From NCBI RefSeq assembly GCF_019904295.1, contig NZ_CP065362.1:372001-436000 (forward strand): a stretch of 64,000 nt of DNA. The letters are read 5' to 3'. The DNA comes from Ruegeria sp. SCSIO 43209 (GTDB lineage Bacteria > Pseudomonadota > Alphaproteobacteria > Rhodobacterales > Rhodobacteraceae). Each line of letters opens with the position of its first letter. Position 1 is the stretch's first letter. Of this stretch, positions 102 to 11,118 are shown one piece after another. The position numbers and the translations under genes are program-made. A model generated the notes under the pieces. The model was not told where the DNA came from and did not search any database. It worked only from the letters and a program-made list of their open reading frames with translations.

Positions 102-1442
102 ATGACCAAGATCACCTTTGTAGGTGCAGGTTCCACGATCTTCATGCAGAACATCGTGGGCGACGCCCTGCTCACCCCTGCCCTTGCAGACAGCCACTTT
201 GCGCTGATGGATATCGATCCGGTGCGCTTGGCCGAAAGCGAAGCTGTGGCCAAGGCCATGATCCGCTCAGTCGGCACGGGTGCAACCGTCTCAACCCACA
301 CGGATCGTCGCGCGGCGCTGGACGGCGCAGATTTCGTGATCACTGCCTTTCAGGTTGGCGGGTATGAGCCTTGCACGGTGACAGATTTTGAAATCCCAAA
401 ACAATATGGCCTGCGTCAGACTATCGCCGATACGCTGGGTGTTGGTGGCATTATGCGCGGCCTGCGCACTGTGCCCGTTCTGTGGGGCGTCGCGCAGGAC
501 ATGATGCAGTTGTGCCCCAACGCAACGCTGCTGCAATACGTGAATCCGATGGCCATCAACACCTGGTCTCTGGCTGAGCGCTTCCCTAATCTGAAACATG
601 TCGGCCTGTGCCATTCTGTCCAGAACACGGTCGAAGAACTGGCGCATGATCTAGACCTGCCCAAGGCGGACTTTCGCTACAAAGTTGCCGGCATCAATCA
701 CGTCGCGTTCTTCCTCAAGCTCGAGCATGAAGGCCGCGATCTGTATCCGGCTTTGCGTCAGGGCTATCGCGCCGGGCATTTACCCAAGCCTCCGCTGCTA
801 ATGCCGCGCTGTCCAAACAAAGTCCGGTACGAAGTGATGGACCATCTTGGATACTTCTGCACCGAAAGTTCCGAGCATTTTGCAGAATACGTTCCTTGGT
901 TCATCAAAGACGGTCGCAATGACCTGATCGAACAGTTCAGCATACCGCTGGACGAATACCCGACCCGCTGTGTCGAGCAGGTGGCCAATTGGAAGGAACA
1001 GGCCAAGACCCTGACAGATGGTCGGAACATCGAAGTAACCCGAAGCCATGAATTCGCCGCCGACCTTATGAACGCAATCGTGACAGACACGCCGTACACA
1101 GCCTACGGCAACCTGCCAAATACGGGTCAGATTCCGCAATTACCCCTAGGTGCAGCGGTTGAAACGCCGTGTCTGGTTGACTCGAATGGCGTCCAGCCTT
1201 CCGTGGTCACGGATATCCCACCACAACTGATCGCGTTGATGCGGACCCAGATCAACGTACAAGAGCTAACGGTTCGCGCGCTGACCGAAGAAAACCCCGA
1301 ATACATCTATCACGCCGCAATGATGGATCCCCATACTGCAGCCGAGCTGGATCTGCGCCAAATTCGCGGCCTCGTCACCGATCTGCTTTCTGCCCATGGC
1401 GATTGGCTGCCAGATTGGTGCCGCCCCGCCCGCGCAGCTTAA
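102..1442 (+). CDS. melA: GH4 family alpha-galactosidase (MelA-like)
   Basis: A 446-aa cytoplasmic NAD- and metal-dependent glycosidase of family GH4, which cleaves alpha-glycosides by a redox-elimination mechanism (family knowledge). Seen here: an N-terminal Rossmann fold with FVGAGS at residues 6-11 and acidic residues D37/D39 after beta-2, the family stretch around GVGG (113-116), and metal-site residues C170-H171 (GLCHSVQ) and N199-H200 (GINH). Length fits GH4 (about 430-480 aa). ATG at 102 follows an AGAGG ribosome site. It lies between a sugar permease and a galactonate-type pathway, so alpha-galactosidase is favoured over the alpha-glucosidase or glucuronidase activities also found in GH4. 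Exact specificity is inferred. Confidence 0.8.
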   Translation: MTKITFVGAGSTIFMQNIVGDALLTPALADSHFALMDIDPVRLAESEAVAKAMIRSVGTGATVSTHTDRRAALDGADFVITAFQVGGYEPCTVTDFEIPKQYGLRQTIADTLGVGGIMRGLRTVPVLWGVAQDMMQLCPNATLLQYVNPMAINTWSLAERFPNLKHVGLCHSVQNTVEELAHDLDLPKADFRYKVAGINHVAFFLKLEHEGRDLYPALRQGYRAGHLPKPPLLMPRCPNKVRYEVMDHLGYFCTESSEHFAEYVPWFIKDGRNDLIEQFSIPLDEYPTRCVEQVANWKEQAKTLTDGRNIEVTRSHEFAADLMNAIVTDTPYTAYGNLPNTGQIPQLPLGAAVETPCLVDSNGVQPSVVTDIPPQLIALMRTQINVQELTVRALTEENPEYIYHAAMMDPHTAAELDLRQIRGLVTDLLSAHGDWLPDWCRPARAA

Positions 1443-1496
1443 TCTTCGTCTTCTCAAAAAACACTCAATTCCAACGCCAGACTGACAGAGCCAATA

Positions 1497-3206
1497 ATGA
1501 CCAAGAAACGCCGTTCACAGCATTGGTACGGAAAACTCGATAAGGACGGGTTCATTCACCGGTCCTGGATGAAAAACCAGGGCTTTCCGGATCACGCTTT
1601 TGACGGGCGCCCCATCATCGGCATCTGCAACACATGGTCGGAACTGACGCCCTGCAATTCGGGCCTTCGTGATCTAGCCGAAGGCGTGAAACGGGGCGTG
1701 TGGGAGGCGGGCGGCTTTCCAGTGGAATTCCCCGTTATGTCGCTGGGCGAGACCCAGATGAAACCCACCGCCATGCTGTTTCGCAACCTGCTGGCGATGG
1801 ATGTCGAGGAATCGATCCGCGCCTATGGTATCGACGGCGTTGTCCTGCTGGGTGGATGCGACAAGACCACCCCGGGGCAGCTGATGGGTGCAGCCTCGGT
1901 CGATTTGCCGTCCATCGTGGTTAGCTCTGGCCCGATGCTGAACGGCAAATACCGGGGTCAGGATATCGGTTCGGGCACTGATGTCTGGAAGTTTTCCGAA
2001 GCTGTTCGTGCCGGAGAAATGACACTTCAGGATTTCATGAACGCTGAATCAGGCATGTCGCGTAGCGCGGGTGTGTGCATGACTATGGGCACCGCTAGTA
2101 CCATGGCCTCATTGGTTGAGGCGATGGGCATATCGCTGCCCACCAACGCCGCCCTGCCTGCCGTTGATGCCCGCCGCATGGCACTGGCGCATCTGACCGG
2201 CAAGCGCATTGTCGAGATGGTGGACGAGGGTCTCAAACCATCAGATATCCTGACCAAGGAGGCGTTTGAGAATGCCATCCTCGCCAATGCAGCCGTCGGA
2301 GGATCGACAAACGCAGTGGTCCACCTGTTGGCACTTGCAGGTCGCGTGGGTGTCGACTTGACGTTGAAAGACTTTGAAATCGGATCGGAAATCCCCCTGC
2401 TGGTCAATTGCATGCCTTCTGGCAAATACCTGATGGAGGATTTCTGTTATGCAGGCGGTGTGCCAGTGGTTCTGAGCGAACTCAAACCTTTCCTGCGCCC
2501 GGCAAGAACAGTTCTGAACAAGGACATCTCGGCCCACTGTGAAGGGGCTGAGTGTTTCAACACAGACGTCATCCGCCCATTTGACGATCCGGTAAAACCC
2601 GCCGCAGGCCTGCGGGTTCTGCACGGCAATCTTGCGCCCAACGGGGCAATCGTGAAGCCTTCGGCGGCCACAGATGCACTGCTGGAAACCGAGGCCGAAG
2701 CATACGTTTTTGAGAGCATCGAAGATCTGAAAGCCAATATCGACCGCGACGACTTACCAGTAACACCTGAGACCATTCTGGTCCTCAAAGGTTGTGGGCC
2801 CAAGGGCTATCCAGGGATGCCCGAGGTTGGGAACATGCCGATCCCGGCCAAGCTGGTCAAAGACGGCGTACGCGACATGATCCGGATCTCGGACGCGCGT
2901 ATGTCTGGTACTGCATTCGGGACAGTTATCCTGCATGTCAGCCCTGAGGCTCAGGCTGGTGGTACGTTGGCGTTGGTCAAAACCGGTGACCGTATTCGCG
3001 TGTCCGCCAGCAAGGGCGAGCTGCAGCTGCTGGTCGACGAAAAGGAACTGGACGCCCGCCGCGCCCTGTGGCAACCGGACGATCCGCATTACTCGCGCGG
3101 GTATGCGAAGCTTTATATCGACCACGTGTTGCAGGCTGATCGCGGCGCGGACCTTGATTTCCTTGTGGGCAAAGACACGCGCCTAGTGACGAGAGAGAGC
3201 CACTGA
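1497..3206 (+). CDS. IlvD/Edd-family sugar-acid dehydratase (galactonate/arabinonate type)
   Basis: A 569-aa dehydratase of the IlvD/Edd family, expected to turn an aldonate into its 2-keto-3-deoxy acid with an iron-sulfur cluster and Mg2+. Cluster cysteines are visible at C53 (TPCN), C121 (GGCDKTTPG) and C194 (AGVCMT). K123 matches the lysine that is carbamylated in L-arabinonate dehydratase. The N-terminus (RSQHWYGKLDKDG) and overall pattern resemble the L-arabinonate/D-galactonate subgroup more than IlvD or Edd. The following genes encode DgoK and DgoA, which handle the product of galactonate dehydration, so D-galactonate is the favoured substrate. L-arabinonate or D-fuconate are alternatives. 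Its TGA stop shares bases with the ATG of the next gene. Confidence 0.8.
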   Translation: MTKKRRSQHWYGKLDKDGFIHRSWMKNQGFPDHAFDGRPIIGICNTWSELTPCNSGLRDLAEGVKRGVWEAGGFPVEFPVMSLGETQMKPTAMLFRNLLAMDVEESIRAYGIDGVVLLGGCDKTTPGQLMGAASVDLPSIVVSSGPMLNGKYRGQDIGSGTDVWKFSEAVRAGEMTLQDFMNAESGMSRSAGVCMTMGTASTMASLVEAMGISLPTNAALPAVDARRMALAHLTGKRIVEMVDEGLKPSDILTKEAFENAILANAAVGGSTNAVVHLLALAGRVGVDLTLKDFEIGSEIPLLVNCMPSGKYLMEDFCYAGGVPVVLSELKPFLRPARTVLNKDISAHCEGAECFNTDVIRPFDDPVKPAAGLRVLHGNLAPNGAIVKPSAATDALLETEAEAYVFESIEDLKANIDRDDLPVTPETILVLKGCGPKGYPGMPEVGNMPIPAKLVKDGVRDMIRISDARMSGTAFGTVILHVSPEAQAGGTLALVKTGDRIRVSASKGELQLLVDEKELDARRALWQPDDPHYSRGYAKLYIDHVLQADRGADLDFLVGKDTRLVTRESH

Positions 3207-3973
3207 TGGATCAACCTGCTACATTTCAAGACCTCAACGGAGCCTCTGTTTATATCACCGGCGGCGGTTCGGGCGTTGGTGCAGCGTTGACTGACGGGTT
3301 CATGGCCCAAGGGGCTAAAGTTGCCTTTATCGGTCGGTCAGATGCCGGTGAATTTGTCGAACAGATGCGTGACAAGCATGGCCGCGCCCCCTTGTTCCTG
3401 CAGGGTGACATGACTGATACCGAGCTGTTGCACGCCACCATGGCCAAAGCAGCTGAAGCCCATGGCCCGATTAAAGTGCTGGTCAACAACGCCGCGAATG
3501 ACAAGCGGCACTCACTTGAAGAATCTACAACCGAGTTCTGGGACTGGATGATCGAAGTCAACCTAAAGGCCTATTATTTTGCCTGTCAGGAAGCCGCGCG
3601 ACAGATGAAGGACAAAGGCGGTTCGATCATCAATTTCAGTTCGATCAGTTACCTGATGGGGAACGCAGGTTATCCAATCTATACAAGTTCAAATGCGGCA
3701 ATCACCGGCATGACACGCTCGTTGGCGCGTGAACTTGGGCCACATAAAATTCGCGTCAACGCGCTGGCACCGGGATGGGTTCTGACACAGAAACAGCTGG
3801 ACATGTGGGCCACACCCGAAGATCTGGCTGCGCATATGGATCGCCAGAGCCTGAAAGAGCATCTGACGCCCGAAGACATGATCGCACCAACCCTGTTTCT
3901 GGCTTCAAGCGCAAGCCGTGCAATGACCGGGCAGTGCATGGTGGTTGACGGCGGCGTGGTAGGAACGGGGTGA
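3206..3973 (+). CDS. SDR-family oxidoreductase, probable galactose 1-dehydrogenase, catalytic Lys replaced by Asn
   Basis: A 255-aa classical short-chain dehydrogenase/reductase. Seen: TGGGSGVG at 18-25 (cofactor binding), NNAA at 94-97, N119 (EVN), S146 and Y159 of the active site, and a C-terminal VDGGV. At the position of the invariant lysine of Y-x3-K the sequence is Y159-T-S-S-N163, so the lysine is replaced by Asn (codon aat at 3691-3693). In the operon it is the only dehydrogenase that could oxidise galactose to the lactone used by the SMP-30 protein, which supports a galactose 1-dehydrogenase role. The missing lysine makes activity uncertain, so it may be inactive or use an altered mechanism. 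It overlaps the dehydratase stop and is followed after 4 bp by dgoK. Confidence 0.7.
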   Translation: MDQPATFQDLNGASVYITGGGSGVGAALTDGFMAQGAKVAFIGRSDAGEFVEQMRDKHGRAPLFLQGDMTDTELLHATMAKAAEAHGPIKVLVNNAANDKRHSLEESTTEFWDWMIEVNLKAYYFACQEAARQMKDKGGSIINFSSISYLMGNAGYPIYTSSNAAITGMTRSLARELGPHKIRVNALAPGWVLTQKQLDMWATPEDLAAHMDRQSLKEHLTPEDMIAPTLFLASSASRAMTGQCMVVDGGVVGTG

Positions 3974-3977
3974 CGCT

Positions 3978-4871
3978 ATGAATGTCGAGTGGATCGCTGT
4001 TGACTGGGGAACATCTCATCTGCGGGCATGGGCCATGCAAGGTGATAGCGTTTTGGCACAGGCCGCGTCGTCAGATGGTATGTCCCGCACAACCGGCGGA
4101 GGTTTTCAGGCAGCCCTGCTGGCTTTGATCGAAGATTGGCTGCCCGGGCAACCGGTAGATGTGATCGCCTGCGGAATGGTCGGGGCACGACAGGGTTGGG
4201 TCGAGGCCCCGTATTCTGCGGTTCCATCCGAGCCCATTCCGGTCGTACCCTTCCGCGTTCCAAACACCGATCCGCGTATTCGGGCCTTCGTTGTTCCTGG
4301 GCTGAAACAGACCAGCCCTCCCGATGTGATGCGCGGCGAAGAGACTCAGATCGCGGGGTTCCTCAGCACGCATCAGAATTGGGACGGTGTGATTTGCCTA
4401 CCCGGCACGCATACAAAATGGGCCCAGATCAGTGCCGGAGAGGTGGTCAGTTTCCGAACCTTCATGACCGGCGAGTTGTTTGATCTGCTGCGCGGGCAAT
4501 CCGTTCTGCAGCATTCAATTGACGAGGGCTGGGACGACGTGAATTTTACCGAAGCGGTTGCCGACATGCTGTCGAAACCCGAGCAGCTGGCAGCGCGCCT
4601 ATTCGGGCTACGGGCTGCTGATTTGCTGCACGGTCAAAGCAAGAGCGTTGCACGCGCCCGTCTTTCAGGGTTCCTGATTGGCGCCGAGCTTGCCGCATCG
4701 CGGCCCTATTGGCTGGGCCAACAATTGGCGATCATCGGCTCGGAAAGTCTGACCAAGGCCTACGCGACCGCCCTGCAGCAACAAGGTGCCATGGTCGAAA
4801 CCGCAGACGCCACAATCGCAACACTTGCGGGTCTGTCGCAGGCCCGAACATTAACGAGGCAAACCGCATGA
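3978..4871 (+). CDS. dgoK: 2-dehydro-3-deoxygalactonokinase DgoK
   Basis: A 297-aa cytoplasmic kinase of the DgoK family that phosphorylates 2-keto-3-deoxygalactonate to the 6-phosphate with ATP. The N-terminal phosphate-loop motif VDWGTSHLRAW (8-18) and the RGEETQIAGFL and PGTHTKW stretches are diagnostic of the family. The length is normal. Its stop overlaps the start of dgoA in an ATGA junction (4868-4871), so the two are translationally coupled. It is the central step of the De Ley-Doudoroff pathway predicted for this operon. I see no missing residues or frameshift. Confidence 0.92.
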   Translation: MNVEWIAVDWGTSHLRAWAMQGDSVLAQAASSDGMSRTTGGGFQAALLALIEDWLPGQPVDVIACGMVGARQGWVEAPYSAVPSEPIPVVPFRVPNTDPRIRAFVVPGLKQTSPPDVMRGEETQIAGFLSTHQNWDGVICLPGTHTKWAQISAGEVVSFRTFMTGELFDLLRGQSVLQHSIDEGWDDVNFTEAVADMLSKPEQLAARLFGLRAADLLHGQSKSVARARLSGFLIGAELAASRPYWLGQQLAIIGSESLTKAYATALQQQGAMVETADATIATLAGLSQARTLTRQTA

Positions 4872-5473
4872 GCCGCCCCATCATCGCCATCCTGCGTGGG
4901 CTGAACCCTGACGAGGCGCTACCGGTCGGTCACACCCTGCTAGAAGCGGGAATTGACCGGATTGAGGTTCCGCTGAACTCTCCCGATCCGCTGGAAAGTA
5001 TCCGAGTTCTCGCCTCGAAGATCGGGGACCGTGCGCTTATCGGAGCGGGCACTGTATTAACCCCCGATCAAGTTGACGCGATTGCTGATGTCGGAGGTAG
5101 ATTGATCGTTTCGCCGAATTGCGATGTGCCCGTGATCCAACGCTCTGTCGCGCTTGGGCTGCAAAGCTGGCCAGGTGTGTTCACGCCGACCGAGGCCTTC
5201 GCAGCGCTCCAGGCCGGGGCTACAGGGTTAAAACTTTTCCCCGGTTCGCTTGCCGGTCTTGCAGGGTTGGCTGCGCTGCGCCCTGTTTTGCCGCCGGGTG
5301 CTCAGGTCTTTGCCGTGGGCGGTGCAGGCCCCGAGAACTTTGGAGCCTGGATCGAGGCCAGCGCCGACGGCTTCGGAATTGGATCTGCGCTCTATAAGCC
5401 CGGAATGTCAGTTGGAGATATAGCAAACCGTGCCCGGCAAATCGTTGCTGCCTATGATGAGGCCGTTGGATGA
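4868..5473 (+). CDS. dgoA: 2-dehydro-3-deoxy-6-phosphogalactonate aldolase DgoA
   Basis: A 201-aa class I aldolase of the KDPG/KDPGal family that splits KDPGal into pyruvate and glyceraldehyde 3-phosphate. Seen: ILRGL near the N-terminus, E33 (IEVPL), GAGTVLTP (59-66), and the Schiff-base lysine K122 in TGLKLFPG. Offsets fit E. coli DgoA. The frame is open further upstream, but ATG 4868 is chosen because it gives the standard N-terminus (MSRPIIAILRG) and an ATGA overlap with dgoK. The 3' end overlaps the lactonase gene in the same way (5470-5473). Galactose specificity is inferred from the DgoK neighbour. Confidence 0.92.
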   Translation: MSRPIIAILRGLNPDEALPVGHTLLEAGIDRIEVPLNSPDPLESIRVLASKIGDRALIGAGTVLTPDQVDAIADVGGRLIVSPNCDVPVIQRSVALGLQSWPGVFTPTEAFAALQAGATGLKLFPGSLAGLAGLAALRPVLPPGAQVFAVGGAGPENFGAWIEASADGFGIGSALYKPGMSVGDIANRARQIVAAYDEAVG

Positions 5474-6330
5474 GTCAGGTCTATGACGACCGCCCCTGCG
5501 AATTGGGCGAGGGGCCATTGTGGCACCCTAAACGGCAACAGCTTTTCTGGTTCGATATCATCGGCAAGCGATTGATGACGCGAGAAAATGAACAAGCGCA
5601 TAGCTGGGCGTTCGATGAACATGTCTCAGCCGCAGGATGGGTAGACCGTGACACTTTGCTGATCGCGTCGGAAACCGGCCTGTGGCGATTTGGGCTTGAG
5701 AGTCGAGCCAAAGATTTGATCGCCCCGCTTGAGGTCGACAATCCGGTGACTCGATCCAATGATGGGCGCGCCGATCCTTGGGGCGGGTTCTGGATTGGCA
5801 CCATGGGCAAACAGGCAGAAGTAGGCGCAGGTTCGATCTATCGCTATTGGAATGGCGAGCTACGGCCATTGGTCCGAGATATCACCATCTCAAATGCAAT
5901 TTGCTTTGCGCCGGACCGATCCTGCGCCTATTACAGCGATACCGCCACCAAGCTGGTCATGCGTTGGGAACTGGACGCGCAGACAGGCTGGCCCATAGGA
6001 AAAGCGGCGGTCTTCCTTGACCTGCAAAGCGAAGATCTGAACCCGGACGGTGCCGTGGTTGATCACGACGGAAACATCTGGATCGCCCAATGGGGTGCCA
6101 GCCGGGTTGCAGCCTATACGCCCGGCGGTCAATTCCTGAGAGCGGTTGGTTTCGATGCCAAACACACTTCGTGCCCGAGTTTTGGTGGTGATGACCTGAC
6201 TACACTGTTCTGCACCACCGCCCGCCAAGGGCTGGACGCGGACACTCTTGTAAGAACGCCGACGAATGGCATGACACTCACCGCGCCAAATGTGGCGCAA
6301 GGTCAAGCTGAACACAGAGTTATACTATGA
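5470..6330 (+). CDS. SMP-30/gluconolactonase-family sugar lactonase
   Basis: A 286-aa six-bladed beta-propeller lactonase of the SMP-30/Gre/LRE family, which opens aldonolactones with a divalent metal. Expected metal and substrate residues are present: E14 (GEGPLW), N97 (SNDGR), N142 (ISNAI) and D193 (NPDG). In this operon it would hydrolyse galactono-lactone made by a galactose dehydrogenase into galactonate for the IlvD-type dehydratase. It starts in an ATGA overlap with dgoA and ends in an ATGA overlap with the beta-galactosidase (6327-6330), which points to one polycistronic message. No signal peptide is visible, so it is cytoplasmic. Confidence 0.87.
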   Translation: MSQVYDDRPCELGEGPLWHPKRQQLFWFDIIGKRLMTRENEQAHSWAFDEHVSAAGWVDRDTLLIASETGLWRFGLESRAKDLIAPLEVDNPVTRSNDGRADPWGGFWIGTMGKQAEVGAGSIYRYWNGELRPLVRDITISNAICFAPDRSCAYYSDTATKLVMRWELDAQTGWPIGKAAVFLDLQSEDLNPDGAVVDHDGNIWIAQWGASRVAAYTPGGQFLRAVGFDAKHTSCPSFGGDDLTTLFCTTARQGLDADTLVRTPTNGMTLTAPNVAQGQAEHRVIL

Positions 6331-8240
6331 AGCCGGAACTTGGCGTTTGCTATTACCCTGAACACTGGCCCGAAGAAAACTGGGCTCAGGACGCCGCGCG
6401 CATGGTCGAGATTGGCTTGAAATGGGTCAGGATCGGCGAATTCGCCTGGAGCCGAATGGAACCCACTGCTGGAGACCTGCAATTCGACTGGTTGGATCGC
6501 GCGATTGAAACCTTGGGTGCGGCAGGGCTGAAGATTGTGCTGGGCACCCCGACGGCAACACCTCCGCGATGGATGCTGGACAAGCATCCCGACATGCTGG
6601 CTGTGGATGCTGATTGCAATCTACGCAAGTTCGGCTCACGCAGACATTATTGCTTTAGTCACACCGGCTATATCGACGAATGCAAGCGGATCACGAAGAT
6701 CATGGGTCGGCGCTATGGCCGCAACCCGTATATCGCTGCTTGGCAAATCGATAACGAATATGGCTGTCACGATACGACGCTCAGCTATAGTGCTGCGGCG
6801 CTGTATGCTTTTCACCGCTGGCTGTCGAACCGATACAACTCGATCGACGCGTTGAACGATGCCTGGGGGAATGTGTTCTGGTCGATGGAATATAACAGCT
6901 TCGATCAGATCGAGCTGCCGAACCAGCCCGTAACCGAGCCCAACCCGGCACACGTCTTGGCGTTTCGCAGGTTCAGTTCGGATCAAGTGGTGGCGTTCAA
7001 CAAGGCCCAGGTCGATGCGCTGCGGCCGCTAACGGATCAACCATTGCTGCACAATTACATGGGGCGTGTGCTGGAATTCGATCATTTCGATGTAGGCAGG
7101 GATTTGGACATCGCGACGTGGGACAGCTATCCTATTGGCTTCCTGTCGGATCGGTTGGAAGTGGACGAGCCGCACAAGACTGCATTTCTGCAGCAGGGTG
7201 ATCCGGACATGCAGGCCTTTCACCACGACCTATACCGCGCCGTCGGTCGAGGCCGTTGGTGGGTCATGGAACAGCAACCCGGTCCAGTGAACTGGGCCCC
7301 CTACAACCCGGCACCCCTGCCCGGCATGGTGCGTCTCTGGTCGCTTGAGGCGGTGGCCCATGGGGCCGAAGTGGTCAGCTATTTCCGCTGGCGGCAAGCA
7401 CCGTTCGGGCAGGAACAGATGCATGCCGGTCTACTTACCCCGCATGGCGACGAAGCACCCGGTTTGGCAGAGGCGCGTCAGACCGCCGATGATCTGGCCG
7501 CGATAGGCACGGTTAAACCAGCCCATGCACAGGTTGCTATCGTCTTCGATTATGCATCTGACTGGGCCTGGACAACGCAGCCTCAGGGCGCGGGGTTCGA
7601 CTATTTCCGGCTCGTATTCTCTGCCTACCGCGCGTTGCGGCGCGCTGGGTTGTCGGTGGATTTCGTGCCTCAGGACAAGGTCGGCAAGGAGCACTATAAT
7701 CTGATCCTAGCACCGGGCCTGGCTGCCCTAGGCGATCTTGAACAAAGGCTACTACAAGGATGTGATCTTGCCGTTCTGGGACCGCGCAGCGGGGCAATCA
7801 CCGCAGATTTTCAGATCCATGATTCGGGGCGCCCAGGTCTTGATGGCCTCAGCAGCCATGTCGATCTGATCGAAACTTTGCCACCCGGCGTAACCCGTAT
7901 TGTCGAAGGGGGTGGTGCTGCGGAACATTGGGTTGAGCGCTTGTCAGGCTCCGCCCAAAAATTGCTTTCTTTCGCAGATGGCGCTGCGGCGTTGCATGGC
8001 GGTGCCGGTCTTTGGTATTTGGCGGGGTTCCCCGATGAGGCCCTTTGGGATCGCGTCATAGCCATGGCGGCCCAGAAAACGGATCTGGCGCTCCATCCGA
8101 TGCCCAAAGGGCTGCGGCGGCGCGAGACGCAGTCGCACGAAGTGCTGATCAACTATAATGCGCATTCAGTGACATGGGACGGCCAGCAGATCGAGGGATG
8201 TGATGTCCTGTTCAGGACGCGCGGTTCATATAAACGTTAA
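6327..8240 (+). CDS. GH42 beta-galactosidase
   Basis: A 637-aa beta-galactosidase of family GH42. Seen: N-terminal barrel start GVCYYPEHWP (6-15), acid/base E144 in WQIDNEYG, nucleophile E315 in VMEQQPGPVNW, then the trimerisation/beta domain containing ETADDLA-like helices and VAIVFDY. The length is slightly below the usual 650-690 aa, with a short C-terminal domain. There is no signal peptide, so it acts on imported galactosides. The ATG overlaps the lactonase stop. It feeds galactose into the dgo genes upstream and glucose into the downstream kinase. Natural substrate (lactose-like or algal galactoside) cannot be read from sequence. Confidence 0.9.
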   Translation: MKPELGVCYYPEHWPEENWAQDAARMVEIGLKWVRIGEFAWSRMEPTAGDLQFDWLDRAIETLGAAGLKIVLGTPTATPPRWMLDKHPDMLAVDADCNLRKFGSRRHYCFSHTGYIDECKRITKIMGRRYGRNPYIAAWQIDNEYGCHDTTLSYSAAALYAFHRWLSNRYNSIDALNDAWGNVFWSMEYNSFDQIELPNQPVTEPNPAHVLAFRRFSSDQVVAFNKAQVDALRPLTDQPLLHNYMGRVLEFDHFDVGRDLDIATWDSYPIGFLSDRLEVDEPHKTAFLQQGDPDMQAFHHDLYRAVGRGRWWVMEQQPGPVNWAPYNPAPLPGMVRLWSLEAVAHGAEVVSYFRWRQAPFGQEQMHAGLLTPHGDEAPGLAEARQTADDLAAIGTVKPAHAQVAIVFDYASDWAWTTQPQGAGFDYFRLVFSAYRALRRAGLSVDFVPQDKVGKEHYNLILAPGLAALGDLEQRLLQGCDLAVLGPRSGAITADFQIHDSGRPGLDGLSSHVDLIETLPPGVTRIVEGGGAAEHWVERLSGSAQKLLSFADGAAALHGGAGLWYLAGFPDEALWDRVIAMAAQKTDLALHPMPKGLRRRETQSHEVLINYNAHSVTWDGQQIEGCDVLFRTRGSYKR

Positions 8241-8307
8241 TCTAGATACCGCTAACATAACCTGTTAGATGGCGTGACGCTGGTCATGGCTCCAACAGGT
8301 TGCGACA

Positions 8308-10152
8308 ATGAAATATACCCGTTCTGACTTTCCCAATGGCTTTCTGTTTGGTGCGGCTTCCCCTGCAGAACCGGCAACTGGCCTAGACATGCACCGCTTT
8401 ACAGTTCGTTGGCAACACATCATGCCAGACGGTCGCATTCCTGATGCACGCGCATTGGATCAGTGCGAGCAGCGGATTGATCAGCTTTTGGCACACAGCA
8501 TTCGGCCATGCATCGTGCTGGATCACAACGATATCCCCCCAGCGCTGGAGGATATCGGCGGGTGGCGCAATCGAGTAATGGTCGACTATTTTGCAGCGTT
8601 TTCTGAGGTAATCGTCGCTCGGATGGGTGATCGGATATTCAACATCTCTACCTTGAATCCGTCCGTCGGAATCGAACGCGACCCTCGCACCAATGCCCGC
8701 AGCCTGCACCATCAATTGCTTGCACAGGGCGCGGCGCGTCAGGAAATGCGGAGCTATGGGATGGCCAATCTGGGTGTAGAGGTCGATCCGCTCATCCTTG
8801 ATACGATAACCAACGGGCAATACTCGCAGTCTTTGCTGGATCGATTGGCCAGCCACTTTCCCGAAAATTGGCGGGATGATTTTTCCATCATCGCCGAGCC
8901 GATTGATTGGTGCAGCGTAGTCGTGAAAGAAGGCACTGACATAGACAGGCTCATGCGCACAACACATGAGCAATCGCTGCCTTCATTCGTGACCGTAGCT
9001 GCCGATGCGGGTCACGACTTGGTGCATACGCTGGAGCGCATGCATGACGCGCTTGAATCCGACACCTTGGTACACGGCATTTTCGTTCAGTCCGGGACCG
9101 ACGTCGAGGCGTTACAGACAATCCAAACAAGTGACGCCCAGCCGGCCCCATGGATTAGACCCAAGGGAGGGTTACACGCACATTGGAATCTGGTGGCTGA
9201 TATCGGCGGCACAAATACAAGATTGGGCGTCGTAACCGAGGGGGCGCTGACCGATCTTCGCAAACATCCCACCGGCTCCGTAAGCGACCTGCAAGACGCA
9301 TTACACAGTTTGTGCGACGAGGTCGGAACAAAACCGCGCGCGGTCGTTGCTGCCGGGGCGGGGCCGGTTCAGGACGGCACCATTCGCCTGACCAATGCCA
9401 ATCTTGATCTTTCCGAAGACGCTCTGGCCCGAGCGACCGGCGCGCACCATACCTATGTCATCAATGATTTCACTGCTGCCGCATGGTCAGTCGCCGAGAT
9501 TACCGAGAATGATGTTGAGGTATTGCAGGGCTCAGCCGCTCCACCATTGGGGACACGGCTAGTTGTTGGGCCGGGAACCGGGCTGGGCGTGGGCGCCCTG
9601 CTCTACTCTGAAGGACATTTTCACACCGTTTCCGGCGAAGGCGGCCATGTTGGATTGTCCCCGCGCCATCTTGACGAGGTCGAAGTTTTCAGCGCAGCGC
9701 GCCAGATCATACCCGAGTGCTTTTTTGACGATACGCTCACCATCGAGGCCGAGATGTTCCTGAGCGGAACCGGGCTGCCGGTCCTCTATCAGGCGATCGG
9801 GATGGCCGAGGGTCTGCCCGAGGGTGTGGTACGTTCGGCAAAAGACATTCTGCAGGATGCGCAGGACGGCTCGGATACCTGCGCTGTCAAAGCGGCGCGA
9901 ATGTTTACCGAGCATCTGGGCGCCATAATGGGCGATCTTGCTGTTGCTCTTATCCCCTCCGGAGGTGTGTTTCTGGTTGGCGGGGTGGCCGAAAAGAACC
10001 GCTGGCTGTTTGGTCAGGATTTTCTGCGTGCCTTCAACGCGGGTGGGCGGTTCGATGAATTGCGGCAATCGATGAACCTGTATGTGTCAGAACAGGATGA
10101 GTTTGGCATTGTTGGCGCTAACAATTTCTGTAAGAATGCCTTGGCACGGTAA
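8308..10152 (+). CDS. Fusion: degenerate GH1-like domain + glucokinase (Glk)
   Basis: A 614-aa protein with two parts. Residues about 8-285 follow the GH1 beta-glycosidase fold in order (FPNGFLFGAAS, RFTVRWQHIMPDGR, PPALEDIGGW, MGDRIFNISTLN, then IFVQSGTD near the end). However, the acid/base Glu of TLNEP is Pro118 and the ITENG nucleophile region reads FVTVAADAG, so neither catalytic glutamate is present. It is also only about 285 aa against roughly 440 for GH1. Residues about 295-614 form a full Glk-type glucokinase: DIGGTNTRLG (299-308), catalytic D387 in VINDF, GPGTGLG (421-427), GEGGH (443-447). The kinase should phosphorylate glucose freed from galactosides. The GH1-like part may bind sugar or regulate the kinase (inference). 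No stop or frameshift separates the parts. Confidence 0.85.
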   Translation: MKYTRSDFPNGFLFGAASPAEPATGLDMHRFTVRWQHIMPDGRIPDARALDQCEQRIDQLLAHSIRPCIVLDHNDIPPALEDIGGWRNRVMVDYFAAFSEVIVARMGDRIFNISTLNPSVGIERDPRTNARSLHHQLLAQGAARQEMRSYGMANLGVEVDPLILDTITNGQYSQSLLDRLASHFPENWRDDFSIIAEPIDWCSVVVKEGTDIDRLMRTTHEQSLPSFVTVAADAGHDLVHTLERMHDALESDTLVHGIFVQSGTDVEALQTIQTSDAQPAPWIRPKGGLHAHWNLVADIGGTNTRLGVVTEGALTDLRKHPTGSVSDLQDALHSLCDEVGTKPRAVVAAGAGPVQDGTIRLTNANLDLSEDALARATGAHHTYVINDFTAAAWSVAEITENDVEVLQGSAAPPLGTRLVVGPGTGLGVGALLYSEGHFHTVSGEGGHVGLSPRHLDEVEVFSAARQIIPECFFDDTLTIEAEMFLSGTGLPVLYQAIGMAEGLPEGVVRSAKDILQDAQDGSDTCAVKAARMFTEHLGAIMGDLAVALIPSGGVFLVGGVAEKNRWLFGQDFLRAFNAGGRFDELRQSMNLYVSEQDEFGIVGANNFCKNALAR

Positions 10153-10191: not shown

Positions 10192-11118
10192 ATGATCCTG
10201 TGCTGTGGAGAAGCTCTGATCGATATGATTGCCGAACCAACGGTTTCTGGCAGCAAAGGGTTTGTGCCACATTCCGGCGGCGCGATCTTCAATACAGCAA
10301 TTGCATTGGGTCGTTTGGGCATTCAAACGGGGCTTCTGTCAGGGCTATCTACGGACATGTTCGGAGAACAGTTGATCGCCGCCTTGCAGATCAGCCATGT
10401 CGCGACCTCGCACGTTATCCGCTCGGACCGTCCTACGACACTTGCATTCGTGCAGTTGCGGGATGGGCACGCCACATACAGTTTTGTCGATGAGAATACG
10501 GCGGGCCGGATGCTGCGGCCCGAAGACATGCCGGATCAACTACCGGGCGTTTCCGCACTGTATTTCGGAGGGATCAGCCTGGCTTGCGAACCCTGTGCCG
10601 ATGCCTACGCGGCCACACTTGATCGTCATGGCGCGGATCGTGCCGTAATGCTGGACCCCAATATTCGACCCAGCTTTATCAAGGATCAGACGCGATACCG
10701 GACCCGCTTGAACCGTATGATCGCAAAGACCGACATCATTAAAGTTTCCGATGAAGACCTTGATTGGATTATACCGGGCCCCGAAAGCCATGCCGAGAAA
10801 ATTCCACTGCTGCTTCGAGCAGGACCAGCGATTGCAATCGTGACCAAAGGGGGGGATGGCGCGACAGGCTATCTTTCTGATGGAACGGACGTATCCGTAC
10901 CCGTCCAGAAAGTTAAGGTCGTGGATACTGTTGGTGCTGGCGATACGTTCAACGCAGGTGTGCTGGCTGCGCTAAGCCAAACCGGTCATCTCAACAAGCC
11001 CGCCTTGCGCACTTTGCCCACAAGCAGTCTTCGCGACGCGCTTGAATACGGTGCAAAGGTCGCTGCCGTCACCGTATCCCGAGCGGGGGCAAACCCGCCT
11101 TGGGCACAGGAGCTCTGA
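10192..11118 (+). CDS. PfkB-family carbohydrate kinase, probable fructokinase
   Basis: A 308-aa ribokinase/PfkB-family kinase. Seen: N-terminal CCGEALIDM, GGAIFNTAIALGRLG (PfkB signature 1 region), and the C-terminal signature DTVGAGDTFNAG with catalytic base D251. The GEALIDMI and PGG-like start resemble fructokinases rather than KDG kinases or ribokinases. It lies 39 bp downstream of the glucokinase fusion and is the last gene of the operon, ahead of a strong terminator. With an alpha-galactosidase and a glucokinase nearby, fructose from raffinose-type sugars is a plausible substrate (inference). KDG kinase activity is an alternative. Confidence 0.82.
   Translation: MILCCGEALIDMIAEPTVSGSKGFVPHSGGAIFNTAIALGRLGIQTGLLSGLSTDMFGEQLIAALQISHVATSHVIRSDRPTTLAFVQLRDGHATYSFVDENTAGRMLRPEDMPDQLPGVSALYFGGISLACEPCADAYAATLDRHGADRAVMLDPNIRPSFIKDQTRYRTRLNRMIAKTDIIKVSDEDLDWIIPGPESHAEKIPLLLRAGPAIAIVTKGGDGATGYLSDGTDVSVPVQKVKVVDTVGAGDTFNAGVLAALSQTGHLNKPALRTLPTSSLRDALEYGAKVAAVTVSRAGANPPWAQEL

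Follow-up and report, generated by a model that had tools for sequence, protein, structure and literature searches.

A Ruegeria glucokinase fused to a reduced, catalytically defective GH1 barrel, apparently the remnant of a beta-glucosidase::glucokinase fusion

Why should a bacterial glucokinase carry, in the same chain, what looks like a dead glycosidase? The question is raised by a gene in a stretch of 64,000 nucleotides from Ruegeria sp. SCSIO 43209 (contig NZ_CP065362.1, positions 372,001 to 436,000; hereafter the window), which lies on a 512 kb contig of a 4.6 Mb genome. A first-pass annotation of the window described a dead glycoside hydrolase family 1 (GH1) domain joined to a complete glucokinase (Glk) in one unbroken frame. 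Both points are confirmed, the frame encoding 614 amino acids from an ATG with no internal stop and the two parts being recovered by Pfam, phmmer, a motif check and comparison with relatives. The explanation we prefer, with a probability of about 0.6, is that the GH1 half is a pseudo-glycosidase derived from a fusion of the neighbouring genes bgl and glk, kept folded as a scaffold that the kinase does not easily shed. Comparison with the sequences of relatives, the named ones found by homology search being nearly all Ruegeria, shows where the gene comes from, how it eroded by degrees, in which gene contexts it lies, that its catalytic residues are lost and that selection acts on what is left.

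The Pfam GH1 family (PF00232) matches residues 25-118 only (71 bits, E = 7.5e-20), and residues 1-290 retrieve GH1 beta-glucosidases of the PDB (phmmer, best E = 7.3e-25); the threshold of the beta-glucosidase equivalog TIGR03356 is not reached (88.5 against 478.5 bits). The initial estimate of about 285 GH1-like residues therefore holds by Pfam for residues 25-118, the remainder being recognized only through longer relatives and the predicted structure. As had been proposed, both catalytic glutamates are gone. Pro118 takes the place of the acid/base and Val230, within FVTVAADAG (residues 227-235), that of the nucleophile, and 2 of 11 canonical active-site positions, chosen from general knowledge of the family, are retained. 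In the alignment the domain lacks 161 residues relative to full-length relatives, mostly catalytic-face loops and helix 1; the earlier figure was about 150 residues of loops. Of the loops on the catalytic face, 1 and 4-8 have been removed or cut short and 2 and 3 are undeleted. Residues 1-291 are nonetheless predicted to have a GH1 fold, a (beta/alpha)8 barrel related to the family in sequence and in fold, with eight barrel strands remaining (AlphaFold, Foldseek, VIA), so that a different fold for the N-terminal part, the first objection anticipated in the annotation, is not what is found. Helix 1 is absent from this barrel and helix 6 partly missing (AlphaFold and alignment); the stretch that we label helix 6 includes by alignment the beta6-alpha6 loop, with 26 columns judged to be loop and another 6 helix. 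A distant GH1 match was also seen in Faecalimonas umbilicata (25% identity over residues 25-119), with no match to a Glk fusion.

The C-terminal half has the features of a complete glucokinase. PF02685 matches residues 295-609 with 221 bits against a cut-off of 22.1 and covers positions 1-312 of a 314-position model, and the domain aligns nearly end to end with the glucokinase 1q18 (E = 3.1e-30). The phosphate-site and glucose-site motifs, again selected from general knowledge, are all present and aligned to 1q18 (D[IV]GGTN, NDFTA, GEGGH and the Glu before LSG). The score stays below the NCBIfam Glk equivalog cut-offs (TIGR00749, 169.5 against 225.5). In a survey of PF02685, which leaves ROK glucokinases outside it, the fusion is the sole match in all 50 fusion-bearing genomes. 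These E-values, and the presence of a shortened fusion in 18 other Ruegeria genomes, exclude a chance match.

The relatives form a graded series. Among 54 Ruegeria genomes, the GH1::Glk fusion is full-length in 31 (with open frames of 775-810 codons) and shortened in 19 (615-720 codons). The remaining four comprise a genome with Glk but no GH1 part (G061), one in which the copy is cut by a contig end (G065), one with a diverged glk only (G017) and one with none of these (G053). A sequencing join or frameshift is rejected, since the shortened frame is open in 19 genomes; nor do close relatives bear out the other objection foreseen at the outset, that the halves are separate genes, as Glk is fused to a full or shortened GH1 in 50 of the 54. 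The fetched loci yielded 24 distinct full-length proteins and 19 distinct shortened ones, which we call relics and which range from 611 to 707 amino acids with deletions that differ between them. All 11 active-site positions are retained in each of the 24 full-length proteins, as against 0 to 3 in the relics. One catalytic Glu is left in five relics (the nucleophile in L007, L008, L023 and L058, the acid/base in L010), and both in none.

The shortened forms are also found in different surroundings. By position, aglF is no more than 6 kb away from 30 of the 31 full-length fusions, and from none of the 12 shortened fusions in genomes that have it. The shortened forms occur either where the agl (glucoside uptake) locus is absent (7 genomes) or where it has its own solo GH1 (12 genomes). 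A second full-length GH1 is present in 12 of the 19 shortened-fusion genomes, including that of the window, and in none of the 31 with a full-length fusion (Fisher test, 4e-7, uncorrected for kinship); the shortened-fusion genomes without one are exactly the seven without aglF. This suggests that the GH1 half decays where Glk has left agl, because a solo GH1 supplies the enzyme or because the uptake system is gone. In all 18 full-length loci that were mapped, the fusion comes after lacI of the agl locus; PfkB comes next in 17 of them, and L066 has none in its stretch. The window gene and eight other relics, the gal-locus relics, sit between GH42 and PfkB of a galactoside (gal) operon. Relics L038, L046, L058, L059, L060 and L061 have other surroundings in which PfkB is kept, and in L058, L059 and L060 the gene past PfkB resembles by eye that past PfkB in the full-length locus L042. 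In the agl loci of the window genome (G000) and of G014, G007, G022, G011, G002 and G061, lacI is followed by a solo GH1, and the stretch contains neither Glk nor PfkB; in G061 it stops at a contig end just past GH1.

Two genomes are informative about how this arrangement may have come about. In G052 the full-length fusion, with PfkB downstream, lies away from agl, the sole such case among the 31. Upstream of it are an end fragment of lacI and then another lacI-type gene and GH42, as around relics L046 and L058. The agl locus of G052, on a separate contig, has a whole lacI, after which GH1 breaks off at about codon 73; its aglF is in two pieces. The lacI-GH1 junction at both sites fits a block copied to a new site, after which the old one was truncated, and the fused GH1 may still be whole because there is no other whole copy. 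G052 is thus likely a snapshot of relocation, as seen in tblastn pieces from one genome (L113, L114). In G061 (L064, L076) there is a solo GH1 in agl and Glk stands alone in the gal operon, as a frame of 368 codons.

The origin of the fusion itself was sought in a sample of 394 genomes of the family, 215 of which have a match to the full-length fusion with E = 1e-60 or better. Many of these matches run through both GH1 and Glk, usually interrupted by a single stop codon, so that the two are adjacent genes; others are to GH1 alone. Of 29 loci inspected (L078-L106), ranked by read-through score so that same-frame pairs are over-represented, 20 have Glk in the same frame with its DIGG motif 11-31 codons past the GH1 stop, one of them (L080) with a second stop in between. 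The rest are one pair in another frame, the window genome's own solo GH1 and seven that the search pattern did not parse. Adjacent bgl and glk genes with one stop between them suggest that the fusion probably came from stop loss in the agl operon, and the simplest reading is that this occurred between the two neighbours in a Ruegeria ancestor.

Erosion seems to have followed more than once. In the Glk tree the relics are scattered over more than one group, and forcing them together costs 35 log units (approximately unbiased test, p = 0.0069). This test, which recombination or long branches could mislead, rejects a common origin for all the shortened forms, and by these sequences the active site and many loops have been lost in at least two Ruegeria lineages. 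The window relic groups with the other gal-locus relics and G002, and the Glk of G061 is on a long branch. The GH1 tree, with 6 of 7 solo loci parsed, has solo genes scattered among the fused ones and places the solo genes of G000, G007 and G061 at the base; the solo GH1 of the window lineage may or may not once have been fused.

Loss of the active site has for the most part not been followed by free decay of what is left. In a codon likelihood analysis (our own GY94-type script, with topologies from the Glk tree) the relic part of seven gal-locus relics has an omega, the ratio of nonsynonymous to synonymous rates, of 0.268 (log likelihood (lnL) -5423.0 against -5573.6 at omega 1), and two site classes fit better, with 45% of sites at 0.067 and 55% at 0.53 (lnL -5313.3). 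The window trio of G000, G003 and G015, which have large deletions in common, gives 0.293 (lnL -2588.4 against -2638.4 at omega 1). Omega = 1 for the relic as a whole is rejected in both sets. For eight relics of the other group the value is 0.222, although some of this constraint may be older than the loss of activity, and L007, L008 and L058 alone give 0.37. The relic constraint (0.27-0.29) is four to five times looser than that on Glk, at 0.056-0.060 in the likelihood sets other than L007/L008/L058; full-length GH1 is at 0.046. Pairwise counts point the same way, at a median of 0.299 for the relic (7 usable pairs of 171), 0.069 for Glk of the relic proteins (30 of 171), 0.062 for full-length GH1 (54 of 276) and 0.133 for full-length Glk (33 of 276). 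The nine gal-locus relics share 56 invariant residues, and conservation peaks in the N-terminal cap. When gap placement was shuffled in the other relic group, equally few core deletions arose in 0-18 of 5000 shuffles (19 for L010), a comparison that is partly circular because the window's own model served to define the core, with helices 1 and 6 left out, and that is fairer for this other group. With its catalytic residues lost and its conservation beyond neutral, the GH1 half qualifies as a pseudoenzyme domain, the pair L007/L008 being nearly neutral.

We therefore favour the following sequence of events. A beta-glucosidase::glucokinase fusion would have arisen in Ruegeria by stop loss inside the agl operon, and the GH1::Glk-PfkB block would then have been copied or moved elsewhere, in the window to the end of the galactoside operon, agl retaining a solo GH1. 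Outside agl, the GH1 half has shed its catalytic residues and most active-site loops, with its core remaining under purifying selection. The barrel would act as a built-in scaffold, which must fold for the attached kinase to be made, to fold and to stay soluble, and the kinase, the live part, would have come to rely on it for translation start and folding. We infer that in the cell the barrel is folded and has no activity, and that what selection sees is the dependence of kinase folding on it. It is possible, at slightly less than even odds, that a reduced natural TIM barrel was made in this way at least twice, GH1 going from ~440 to ~270 residues mainly by the stripping of its catalytic-face loops to become an obligatory non-catalytic domain of Glk.

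Several observations weigh against retention as a scaffold. The loss of helix 1 and of part of helix 6 means that the barrel core is not untouched. The AlphaFold input had 27 rows, 10 of them full-length GH1, on which the model may lean, and the full-length model is weak (predicted TM score 0.58), with no trusted contact or interface between the domains. Synonymous sites are near saturation between most species, and some of the constraint could reflect avoidance of misfolding instead of use. The closest relic pair, L007/L008, is one recent pair whose relic part differs by 22 nonsynonymous and 10 synonymous codons (pairwise omega 0.63), against 1 and 10 in its Glk. Finally, G061 has Glk without GH1, so that at least one lineage can do without the domain and dependence on the barrel can be escaped.

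Some of these points are also what would be expected if the GH1 half were an unused, decaying passenger that persists because it holds the kinase's open frame and start codon, its mild constraint amounting to avoidance of aggregation. The varied lengths and deletions of the 19 relics fit this explanation as well, and so does the start of Glk: the Met found in many relatives 8 residues before the Glk motif is gone in all nine gal-locus relics, so that Glk seems dependent on the start of the relic. An ATG lies within 30 codons upstream of Glk in L006 only, and a GTG one codon before the Glk motif in four others, the window included. We nevertheless consider a mere passenger unlikely, if a serious contender, given an omega well under 1 in two groups and the window trio, the 45% of relic sites in the strongly constrained class and the invariant residues of the gal-locus relics.

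An improbable alternative is that the emptied barrel tunes the kinase on binding a sugar or some metabolite; the first-pass annotation had proposed a sugar sensor or channel. A non-catalytic domain under purifying selection, in a gene placed in a galactoside operon, might suggest this, and the undeleted loop 3 holds an invariant and conserved GGWRN; the His of YHWEL is also retained in 10 of the 19 relics. Most of the loops and residues with which GH1 binds sugar are deleted or changed, however, the remaining top loops of the gal-locus relics have a low identity, close to that of the helices (0.47 and 0.48), and relics persist in other gene surroundings too. That the domain is still a glycosidase, with a displaced catalytic residue or a narrow specificity, is hardly credible even for the five relics with one Glu, given that none has both, that the window has neither and that 12 of the 19 genomes have a full-length GH1 elsewhere; an active GH1 is rejected on loss of catalytic residues.

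The galactoside operon around the window gene runs GH4, dehydratase, SDR, DGOK, aldolase, SMP-30 lactonase, GH42, fusion gene and PfkB (Table 1). A motif like ATACCGCTAACAT, with small changes, also precedes the eight other gal-locus relics and the Glk of G061. Two patterns for it find three sites in the window genome, namely this one, the agl intergenic region (C1:2352170) and C1:3124611 before a transporter-like gene; enrichment in that genome was not shown, as the first pattern matched 2 times and its reversed control 0 times, and the second pattern 1 time and its control 2 times. The motif is a candidate LacI-family site and may be an operator common to glk and agl. PMC4052901 publishes an AglR motif, which the agl intergenic region fits by eye, and reports the GapR regulon without motif letters; no regulator was matched to ATACCGCTAACAT.

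Table 1. Features of the fusion gene and its operon in the window
Feature	Position	Strand	Remarks
Pseudo-GH1::glucokinase fusion gene	8308..10152	+	614 aa, ATG start, no internal stops (translation, Pfam)
GH1-derived reduced barrel, residues 1-273	8308..9126	+	Eight predicted strands, helix 1 missing, no active site (Pfam/phmmer, AlphaFold, Foldseek, VIA, alignment)
Pro118 codon, in place of GH1 acid/base Glu (NEP)	8659..8661	+	Sequence, phmmer alignment, active-site comparison
FVTVAADAG, residues 227-235, in place of nucleophile motif TENG	8986..9012	+	Val230 for Glu (alignment)
Linker, residues 274-292	9127..9183	+	Mostly low AlphaFold confidence; Met 8 residues before Glk motif (many relatives) absent
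Glucokinase (Glk) domain, residues 293-614	9184..10149	+	Sole PF02685 protein found in genome
Operator-like motif ATACCGCTAACAT	8246..8258	+	Ends 50 bases before the ATG (comparison with relatives)
GH42 beta-galactosidase	6327..8240	+	Directly upstream of fusion gene (Pfam, synteny)
PfkB sugar kinase	10192..11118	+	After Glk at agl and gal loci alike (Pfam, synteny)
Remaining operon: GH4, dehydratase, SDR dehydrogenase, DGOK, KDPG/KHG-type aldolase, SMP-30 lactonase	102..6330	+	Pfam

The nearest known forms are the full-length fusions of other Ruegeria (for example R. intermedia, L040; Ruegeria sp. EL01, L042, 775 amino acids), which have the same architecture and are homologous throughout; those listed in the homology search are 46-48% identical to the window protein in the best segment. 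They differ in their complete GH1 with all active-site residues and in their agl locus. Open-access literature searches found no paper on the full-length fusion. The separate bgl and glk genes that other members of the family have in their agl operon encode the same two proteins in the same order and often the same frame, but with a stop and a start codon between them, and both are presumably active. Klotho proteins are animal extracellular co-receptors which, like the window domain, are GH1-derived, catalytically defective and retained for a non-catalytic use; the window protein differs in the extent of its deletions and in having as its partner a kinase domain of the same chain. NCBIfam NF010701, a bifunctional transcriptional regulator/glucokinase, likewise has Glk in a two-domain protein, but with the kinase N-terminal, and the window protein matches its Glk half only (136 bits against a cut-off of 920, model positions 20-331 of 638).

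One consequence is for annotation. A plasmid copy in R. conchae (WP_260026929.1, L003) is annotated as a family 1 glycosylhydrolase, a label given to a relic fusion whose GH1 half is without catalytic Glu and whose other half is a glucokinase. Separately, the 775-amino-acid fusion of Ruegeria sp. AD91A (L112) appears only as a 349-amino-acid ROK family protein starting inside the frame, with no gene for its GH1 half among those listed in an incomplete table.

Most pseudoenzymes are met only as end points. In this single genus the full fusion, an apparent recent move (G052), intermediates, strongly reduced forms and a complete loss (G061) occur side by side, and erosion accompanies a plausible trigger, the departure of the kinase from the glucosidase's operon. 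The series allows one to ask which comes first for a fused domain, structural necessity or the loss of catalysis, and it bears on the minimum size of a natural TIM barrel. If the reduced barrel is indeed obligatory, Ruegeria would offer a stepwise living series from a two-enzyme fusion to a pseudoenzyme scaffold.
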